DNA of 62,345 nucleotides, taken from contig JAFWLB010000002.1 of the NCBI GenBank assembly GCA_017514025.1, positions 1 to 62,345 on the forward strand, written 5' to 3'. The position numbers were made by a program, and so were the translations under genes. The stretch is from Candidatus Saccharimonadota bacterium. GTDB taxonomy: Bacteria; Patescibacteriota; Saccharimonadia; Saccharimonadales; Saccharimonadaceae. This document shows, piece after piece, positions 13,807 through 40,395 of the stretch (its first letter is position 1; the number at the start of each line of letters is the position of its first letter). The notes beneath the pieces are model-generated. The model saw nothing but the letters and a program-made list of their open reading frames with translations. It did no database searches and was not told the origin of the DNA.

Positions 13807-13835
13807 ATTATATCATTTTTCGAGTATTTTGTCGA
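13807..13835 (-). promoter_or_regulatory. rnpB promoter inside upstream coding sequence
   Basis: The minus strand reads TCGACA, 17 nt, TATAAT. The -35 and spacer are codons of the upstream gene's last residues, and the -10 begins right after its TGA stop. The start point is predicted at the P1 helix. Confidence 0.75.
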
Positions 13836-14658
13836 TAGCGGCGTTGGCTTCGCCGTCGGCAATTATGTTTTTGCTGCGGGGAACGTGAGTGAATGAGACT
13901 GCCTCAAATTGGTCGAGCTTGTTTTGGATATCCCGATAAATCGGGAAAACGTCTTGATTTTTGACGGCGAAAACGCCGTTTAACTGATTGACTACCATGA
14001 GGCTGTCAGAGATGAAATGGGCAGTTTTGTACCCCAACTCGAGGGCGCGCTCGATACCTTTGCGCATAGCAAGATATTCAGCAAGACGAGAGGTGGCAAA
14101 GCCGATAAATTCCCCGCCCCGTTCGATAACGTGGTTATTGTCATAAATACAGTAGCCAATGCCAGAAGGACCGGGATTGCCCCTGGAGGCGCCGTCGACG
14201 TTGATCGTGACGCCATTGGCAGCGCTACGGGCAGAAATGCGGCCCGGAGCGACTTTGCCCTCTTCGATTTCGAGTACAGACATACTGGCTTCGTTTAGAT
14301 GAATGTTTTTAGTGGCGAGATCTTTGACAAATTTGTAGGTGGTATAGCGATAACGTGGAGTAGGCTTAATCTCACCACTAATGCCAAGTTCGTATACGAT
14401 ATAGAGGTTGCTGAGCTGGCTGGAGCCTTCGGGGGCGAGGAAGGTGATGACGTCTTTGAGCTTGAGAGAGTTGGCGACGAGGCCGGTGTATTCGGCGAGC
14501 GAACGAGTCATAGCTTCTTCAGGCTGTTCGCCGAATTTGATTTTGCCGGTGGGAAGCTCCCAAAAAACCGGGGCCTCAGAGCGACCTCGGCTGCGTTTCA
14601 AAACTAGCACCCCATTTTCGTTTTTGATGATACCAACTACGCGAATTCTTTGTTTCAT
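13813..14658 (-). CDS. Nudix-like domain fused to RNase HI
   Basis: 281 residues from the ATG at 14658, which is preceded by AAGGTGGGC. An upstream ATG at 14742 adds 28 residues unlike a Nudix start. Residues about 1-135 are a Nudix fold (VVGIIKNENGVLVLKRSRG). The Nudix box GKIKFGEQPEEAMTRSLAEY lacks two of three metal-binding glutamates, so hydrolase activity is doubtful. Residues about 150-281 are an RNase HI domain with the carboxylates in NVDGASRGNPGP, LAEYLAM, SDSLMVV and IADGEAN all kept. It should cut RNA in RNA-DNA hybrids. The degenerate Nudix part may bind nucleotides or RNA. The 3' end overlaps the rnpB promoter. Confidence 0.82.
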   Translation of the reverse strand: MKQRIRVVGIIKNENGVLVLKRSRGRSEAPVFWELPTGKIKFGEQPEEAMTRSLAEYTGLVANSLKLKDVITFLAPEGSSQLSNLYIVYELGISGEIKPTPRYRYTTYKFVKDLATKNIHLNEASMSVLEIEEGKVAPGRISARSAANGVTINVDGASRGNPGPSGIGYCIYDNNHVIERGGEFIGFATSRLAEYLAMRKGIERALELGYKTAHFISDSLMVVNQLNGVFAVKNQDVFPIYRDIQNKLDQFEAVSFTHVPRSKNIIADGEANAAIDKILEK

Positions 14659-14821
14659 GCCCACCTTTTTGTTTATTGTGGGCCCCGTTGGCCTGTTTTC
14701 CCCGTAATATATACAAGGTGGGTAAAATCTTATGCGATACACCCACGGGTGTAAGCCACGAAATCCCTATAACATGATTATTCAGGAAAATCATGCTGCC
14801 AATGGGGCTAATTTGATTATA

Positions 14822-14910
14822 CCTTATGGGGCTTTCTTTGTAAAGAAAGCCCCAACGAAAGAAACTCAGCAATAAAATTGAGATGGAAGTGAATCCCATC
14901 TCAATTTTTG
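14822..14910 (+). repeat. two-hairpin element, copy A
   Basis: Hairpin 1 is a perfect 12-bp stem GGGGCTTTCTTT/AAAGAAAGCCCC (14828-14853). The linker has AAAGAAACTCAG. Hairpin 2 is a 13-bp stem (14874-14886 with 14896-14908) closing the 9-nt loop AAGTGAATC. Copy B at 40291-40374 has the same architecture with different stem sequences. It lies between the M50 protease 3' end and the Nudix-RNase H start, and hairpin 2 can also act as a terminator on the minus strand. Confidence 0.7.
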
Positions 14911-14919
14911 ATTATTATT

Positions 14920-40290: not shown

Positions 40291-40374
40291 TAAACTTTTC
40301 TTTGAGCAAAGAAAAGTTTAGCAAAAGAAACCTAGTTAGAAACCTGAAATGGAAGTGAATTCCATTTCAGGTTT
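40291..40374 (+). repeat. two-hairpin element, copy B
   Basis: Hairpin 1 is a 14-bp stem TAAACTTTTCTTTG/CAAAGAAAAGTTTA with a 2-nt loop (40291-40320). The linker has AAAGAAACCTAG. Hairpin 2 is a 13-bp stem AAACCTGAAATGG/CCATTTCAGGTTT (40340-40352 with 40362-40374) closing loop AAGTGAATT. Compared with copy A, the stems change on both sides while the loop and linker are kept. It lies in the divergent gap just before the lepB promoter. Confidence 0.7.
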
Positions 40375-40395
40375 TGTTTATGATATAATAGAGTA

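Follow-up and report, generated by a model that had tools for sequence, protein, structure and literature searches.

Two copies of a two-hairpin element in the window

The window, meaning the whole stretch of 62,345 nucleotides analysed here (contig JAFWLB010000002.1 of a Candidatus Saccharimonadota bacterium), carries on its plus strand two copies of a short two-hairpin element (Table 1). Copy 1 is antisense to both of its neighbours, which are on the minus strand; it is flanked on one side by the 3' end of an M50 peptidase gene and on the other by the promoter of a conserved non-coding RNA. Copy 2 is found between divergent genes, just upstream of a signal peptidase I gene (PF10502) and its TATAAT box. 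At the site of copy 1, likewise placed copies were present in genomes G117, G120, and G072, with remnants or empty sites in others; copy 2 was missing from the corresponding intergene of close congeners, which presented empty sites.

The non-coding RNA candidate next to copy 1 is strongly conserved and is found at the equivalent position in most of the congeners read. Its promoter (TTTACA-17-TATAAT, 11/12) has the -35 box inside hairpin 1 of copy 1. It showed no Rfam match and, from its shape of a long hairpin, may be a 6S- or SRP-like RNA. An open reading frame on the same strand encodes a fusion of NUDIX and RNase H-like domains.

Table 1. Features of the two element copies and of the adjacent minus-strand region (CM, covariance model; Y-R-R, order pyrimidine arm, purine arm, purine third strand).
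Feature	Position	Strand	Basis
Copy 1, whole element (head, tail, and terminal GATTATTAT)	14827..14918	+	CM match and right-end conservation
Copy 1 hairpin 1, 13 bp	14827..14854	+	Fold
Copy 1 pyrimidine arm CTTTCTTT	14832-14839	+	Hairpin 1
Copy 1 purine arm AAAGAAAG	14842-14849	+	Hairpin 1
Copy 1 putative third strand GAAAGAAA, mirrors the purine arm exactly	14857..14864	+	Unbiased Y-R-R mirror scan and co-variation
Copy 1 hairpin 2, 13 bp, and T run (terminator-like tail)	14874..14909	+	Fold
Copy 1 hairpin 2 loop AAGTGAATC	14887-14895	+	
Copy 2, whole element	40291..40384	+	CM match
Copy 2 hairpin 1	40291..40320	+	Fold
Copy 2 pyrimidine arm TTTTCTTT	40296-40303	+	Hairpin 1
Copy 2 purine arm AAAGAAAA	40308-40315	+	Hairpin 1
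Copy 2 putative third strand AAAAGAAA, mirrors the purine arm exactly	40323..40330	+	Y-R-R scan
Copy 2 hairpin 2 and T run, terminator-like, 16 bp in fold	40339..40375	+	
Non-coding RNA candidate	14683-14815	-	
ORF, NUDIX and RNase H-like domains	13813-14742	-	

Both copies show the layout described in the original prediction, including the linker AAAGAAAC(C/T)(C/T)AG, the hairpin 2 loop AAGTGAAT(C/T), and the stem changes TTGAG/CTCAA against CCTGA/TCAGG, and they align with almost no gaps. In copy 2, the loop of hairpin 2 is GTGAA within AAGTGAATT. The stability of the two-hairpin fold corresponded to z values of -6.3 (copy 1) and -6.8 (copy 2), and 0/200 dinucleotide shuffles were as stable. 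The element is about 92 nt long and includes the terminal G(A/T)TTATNAT, which belongs to it because it is conserved irrespective of the direction of the downstream gene, an argument that also led us to reject the right end as a promoter. True TATAAT boxes were a feature of downstream co-directional genes (19/45 vs 3/44).

A covarying repeat family in Saccharibacteria

A covariance model seeded by the two window copies and a third copy from a congener matched copy 1 (14827-14909) with an E-value of 9.6e-19 and copy 2 (40291-40375) with one of 7.3e-20. The search for further copies, proposed in the original prediction, identified four full copies in the organism's own genome, the other two at C5:88578-88661 and C6:822-902, and showed that 69 of the 147 genomes searched in the genus carry the family, in 1 to 23 copies each. 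Two further genera of the family also carry the element, one of them with 18 copies. For analysis of the stems, 100 copies were fetched with their flanks and aligned. Among 103 distinct copies, standard pairs occupied 97.4% of the cells, a value that fell to about 66% when the partner was slid by one column; the covariation score was 0.581, against 0.200 for shuffled alignments, and changes were two-sided at 26/26 pairs. These data confirm that the two-hairpin repeat is real and far above chance. They also go against the outcome by which the prediction could have failed (no further copies, or stem changes on one side only), and its claim that the compensatory changes in the paired stems reflect selection on a structure beyond the needs of a plain terminator was sustained. 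As it had stated too, the element corresponds to no named family: no Rfam family was matched at the gathering score, and the weak matches to IsrM, the Lig thermometer, and Yfr8 were far below it.

The loop of hairpin 2, proposed as invariant, is so in the window copies but not across the family, where AAGTGAATT was the commonest (62), followed by AAGTCAATT (9), AAATGAATT (7), and others. In L188, L241, L294, L384, and L385, the apex GGC(A/G)CATGTCC or a near variant replaces AAGTGAATT, and these alternative apices look as if the tails were exchangeable modules. In addition, a third hairpin of variable stem, its apex often TTCC-GTT-GGAA (11 exact), was present in the right flank of 26/102 copies (e.g., L110, L161, and L098), compared with 1/102 in the left-flank control.

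The linker mirrors the purine arm of hairpin 1

The conserved linker AAAGAAAC is not a protein site separating the two hairpins: it varied across copies together with hairpin 1, always as the mirror image of its purine arm, which amounts to the parallel base-by-base complement of its pyrimidine arm. Thus, arm CTTTTCTTT is accompanied by linker AAAAGAAA, CTTTTCTCC by AAAAGAGG, CTTCTTTT by GAAGAAAA, and GCTTTCTTGAA by CGAAAGAACTT. The mean longest mirror match was 8.4 nt vs 6.74 +/- 0.09 for shuffled partners (95 distinct copies), and when each of the 31 stem classes was reduced to a single representative, the value was 8.42 for the own partner vs 6.58 +/- 0.17 for permuted ones (0/5000 permutations), statistics computed over copies that share descent, a kinship partly answered by the comparison of orthologous sites. 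In these pairs, the own partner outscored the swapped one 13 times, tied with it 15 times, and never did worse; as an example, the sites L125/L169 present CTTTTCTTT with AAAAGAAA and CTTCTTTT with GAAGAAAA, respectively.

An antiparallel strand-swap pairing between linker and hairpin 1 was rejected, as its signal was exactly null over the 31 stem classes (6.77 vs 6.77). A scan of the window for exact 8-nt Y-R-R mirrors recovered the two element copies and nothing more, with 0 motifs in shuffles and 0 for the direct-repeat control in the window. With the mirror signal present and the direct and strand-swap signals null, the third strand is a mirror of the purine arm and not a mere repeat.

A mirror repeat beside an inverted repeat on one strand makes a potential intrastrand triplex, in which hairpin 1 would be the duplex and the linker the third strand. 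Both window copies present the Y-R-R order on one strand with a perfect stem of at least 7-8 triads, and in both the second loop, counted from exact triads, is 7 nt, which lies inside the limits of Hoyne (0-10 nt) and just outside those of ITxF (1-6 nt), as given in PMC4666352. Judged from sequence, mirror co-variation of this kind is the signature of a class II (Y-R-R) intrastrand triplex, and by structural definition the head of the element is a class II potential intrastrand triplex.

Position relative to genes

The left neighbour of the element was co-directional in 73 cases and opposed in 20 (n = 93), and the right neighbour showed no preference (47/46). Stop codons clustered 3-7 nt before the element and tRNA 3' ends 5-7 nt before it, so that the arrangement of an intrinsic terminator, a hairpin and T run immediately following a gene of the same direction, was found at 73/93 left neighbours. 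This position, tied to the 3' end of the upstream gene, together with the lack of a conserved promoter of its own (the left flank being uninformative), speaks against the free-standing sRNA of the original prediction, whose other suggestions, a small mobile repeat or a 3' element, were upheld. The prediction was therefore right in recognizing a real structured element under selection, and it overlooked the triplex-type head and the terminator-like 3' placement. Both window copies are exceptions to this placement, as neither follows the end of a gene that runs in its direction. A simple terminator scan returned one terminator-like site for copy 2 (mean of shuffles, 0.1), and hairpin 2 of copy 1 fell below its cut-off.

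In G072, one relative of which about 400 kb were read, 23 orthologous sites were located: five held the element, 10 another hairpin with a T run, and eight neither. The 10 were flagged by a simple script, and several are clear ordinary terminators, whereas a few are doubtful. Clear ordinary terminators directly after the gene were found at L142/L340, L161/L333, L113/L337, L148/L346, and L194/L345, which supports a terminator role for the tail; these ordinary terminators of the same species have no triplex-type head.

Altered copies were seen at two sites. In L337 (G072), opposite L130, a remnant has lost hairpin 1 and retains the purine linker and hairpin 2. In L124 (G023), two inverted copies follow directly 3' of the tmRNA gene, the second one with a decayed third strand.

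Occurrence beyond Saccharibacteria and search for a mover

The core pattern of the head, ACTTTTCTTTn(1-7)AAAGAAAAGTn(2-6)CAAAAGAAAC, was scanned in 84,980 species genomes and was detected in at least 118 stretches, where chance alone, by simple arithmetic, would yield about 1e-5 with equal base frequencies and far fewer than one in A/T-rich DNA. Among the matches listed were Selenomonadaceae, Stenotrophomonas, Clostridia, Desulfobacterota, Mucilaginibacter, Falkowbacteria, and Saccharibacteria, and the head core was nearly identical in Selenomonas, Stenotrophomonas, Burkholderiaceae, Desulfobacterota, and others. Variants in the matched stretches that were not imposed by the pattern kept the mirror (TTTCTTTC..GAAAGAAAG..AAAGAAAG; TTTCTCTT..AAGAGAAAG-type). 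In Burkholderiaceae, at least 40 core copies were present on single chromid-like Paraburkholderia replicons, including NZ_CP012748.1, and a Pasteurella copy was located 5 nt past the dapF stop codon. The exact 24-base core was rare in the rest of the window's phylum (3/287 genomes). Outside Saccharibacteria, the orientation bias was weak (56 co-directional, 39 opposed) and the tail differs.

Several candidate movers and carriers were rejected. RAYT/Y1 transposases (PF01797) were found in just 5/147 genomes and not in the organism's own, and were discarded as the general mover; a MITE of a DDE transposon was discarded on the ends of the element (TGGAC... and ...G(A/T)TTATNAT), which are not inverted repeats. 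No transposase associated with the element was found, and no target-site duplication was seen at pairs of empty and filled sites. As for carriage, the core had no match in the phage collection, where copy 2 gave only short weak matches, a single match was found in viral contigs, and the plasmid matches corresponded to chromid-like replicons.

Comparison with known systems

The closest likeness is to the PIT elements, also named BoxC or TM-ECO (Hoyne 2000, 2002; Holder 2015, PMC4666352), which share the class II order of pyrimidine arm, loop, purine arm, spacer, and purine third strand, and are likewise short, intergenic, and multicopy, with copy numbers that vary between close relatives, inverted pairs, and unstable sites. 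However, the element is not TM-ECO/BoxC proper, as the consensus CCCTCNCCCn3-6GGGNGAGGGn3GGGNGAGGG failed and the element reads CTTT(T)CTTT..AAAGAAA(A)G..AAAGAAAC. It is A/T-rich (CTTTTCTTT/AAAAGAAA, against CCCTCNCCC/GGGNGAGGG in the G/C-rich PIT/BoxC/TM-ECO), and its arms are not near-mirror-symmetric, unlike theirs, so that a mirror repeat is distinguishable from a direct one. In addition, it is fused to a terminator hairpin with a conserved loop, and it presents a strong sense bias and a fixed distance to the gene end; TM-ECO, by contrast, shows neither terminator activity nor a preferred strand or distance. What is new with respect to PIT is thus the base composition, the terminator fusion, the sense position, the near-identical cross-phylum core, and the evidence from third-strand co-variation. 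Triplex formation has been shown for the G/C-rich TM-ECO, and only there, in vitro by CD, NMR, and melting, and PIT elements block DNA polymerase in vitro (PMC4666352).

With intrinsic terminators, the element shares a tail, hairpin plus T run, that immediately follows genes and tRNAs, and it takes the place of ordinary terminators at orthologous sites; it differs in its long A/T-rich stem, its conserved apex AAGTGAATT, the obligate, potentially triplex-forming head, and the additional hairpin with a GTT loop after some copies. REP/BIME with RAYT and MITEs are similar as dispersed non-coding hairpin repeats with conserved loops and paired inverted copies, but most carriers of the element lack a Y1 transposase, and there is no GTAG foot or terminal inverted repeat. 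Finally, RNA triple helices (U.A-U, as in ENE/MALAT1 and the telomerase pseudoknot) also combine a hairpin with a tethered third strand, and the minus strand of the element could form a pyrimidine-motif version; however, the transcribed sense strand is of purine motif, and the gene order implies no transcription of the minus strand.

No paper was found in the literature for the exact cross-phylum core strings or for 'Saccharibacteria' with 'intrinsic terminator', and a search of freely accessible papers gave no description of the element, so an earlier report of an A/T-rich core, for example in Burkholderia, is possible.

Proposed mechanism and alternatives

From the conserved structure, the mirror co-variation, the sense position, the replacement of terminators, and the presence or absence between related genomes, we consider it probable that the element is a dispersed 3'-end module of about 92 nt, made of an intrinsic terminator tail and a class II triplex head. 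The tail, with its A-rich/T-rich hairpin, conserved apex, and T run, would end the transcripts of the gene or tRNA located 3-7 nt upstream. In the head, the linker would fold back onto the hairpin 1 purine arm in antiparallel orientation, forming A.A-T and G.G-C triads, once the plus strand is exposed as single-stranded DNA, be it in a transcription bubble, on the lagging strand, or in an R-loop; alternatively, the complementary strand may adopt the corresponding pyrimidine-motif triplex. We infer that the triplex in cells would be one of DNA and not of RNA because the gene order implies that the transcribed plus strand is of purine motif, and such triplexes are reported not to form in RNA, unlike pyrimidine-motif ones, in the part of PMC4666352 that cites Semerad and Maher 1994. 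The head may then impede a polymerase or serve as a recognition structure, reinforcing the 3' boundary or helping the element to spread. The placement of both window copies, the weak orientation bias outside Saccharibacteria, and the weaker triplexes expected from A/T-rich than from G/C-rich purine motifs count against this module. Our confidence in the mechanism is restrained mainly because PIT/TM-ECO elements gave no terminator activity and no stable in vivo triplex by DMS footprinting (PMC4666352).

A selfish hairpin repeat of the REP/MITE kind is a doubtful alternative, though the strongest of those considered. An enzyme that reads the folded single strand would move it, sites after stop codons would simply be those where insertion is tolerated, and termination would be a by-product. 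The patchy distribution, the empty sites, inverted pairs such as that of L124, the core nearly identical in unrelated phyla, and its multiplication on Paraburkholderia replicons all fit this explanation, whereas the scarcity of Y1 transposases, the lack of terminal inverted repeats, and the results from the phage and viral collections do not, and the 3-7 nt spacing and the sense bias are stronger than tolerance needs.

We regard as unlikely an element acting at the RNA level, in which the transcript would fold hairpin 1 with the purine linker alongside, in an H-type-pseudoknot-like form with the loop pairing to post-linker bases, and would work as a 3' stabiliser or a protein-bound 3' UTR, the AAGTGAATT loop being the protein contact. 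The sense position 3' of genes and the conservation of the loop while the stem changes are in line with it. Outside Saccharibacteria, complementarity between loop and post-linker bases also exceeded that of shuffles (2.36 vs 1.85 +/- 0.10; e.g., GGCGGGC with CCCGCC), but a parallel, triplex-type extension scored equally there (2.34 vs 1.86), and the pseudoknot signal was not significant in Saccharibacteria (57/1000; 191/1000 with one per loop). Moreover, a base-for-base mirror is what a purine-motif triplex requires, the motif that the cited part of PMC4666352 reports not to form in RNA. As for plain intrinsic terminators that resemble each other through A/T-richness and descent, with a meaningless purine linker, they would explain the hairpin and T run at gene 3' ends but are very improbable given the mirror co-variation over 31 stem classes and at orthologous sites, the complete lack of Y-R-R motifs in shuffles, the recurrence of the core in different phyla, and the headless ordinary terminators of the same species.

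Significance

Repeats of the intrastrand triplex type were recognized in E. coli in 2000, and to our knowledge they have no assigned function and no sign that cells make use of the triplex. Those repeats cannot separate a triplex from a simple repeat by comparison because their arms are near-mirror-symmetric, whereas the A/T-rich family can, as it offers numerous different stems, every one matched by a third strand that mirrors it, and some of these changes occur at orthologous sites. The co-variation of the third strand is thus evolutionary evidence for triple helices mattering in living bacteria, and the consistent place after genes, where relatives have terminators, leads to a concrete and testable function for a core that recurs across phyla. 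Tentatively, intrastrand DNA triplexes may be selected structures in bacteria, with a third strand that co-evolves with its hairpin at the same site and in unrelated phyla, and the triplex may be a working part of a widespread module for 3' ends (termination or a replication/transcription boundary) or for mobility.
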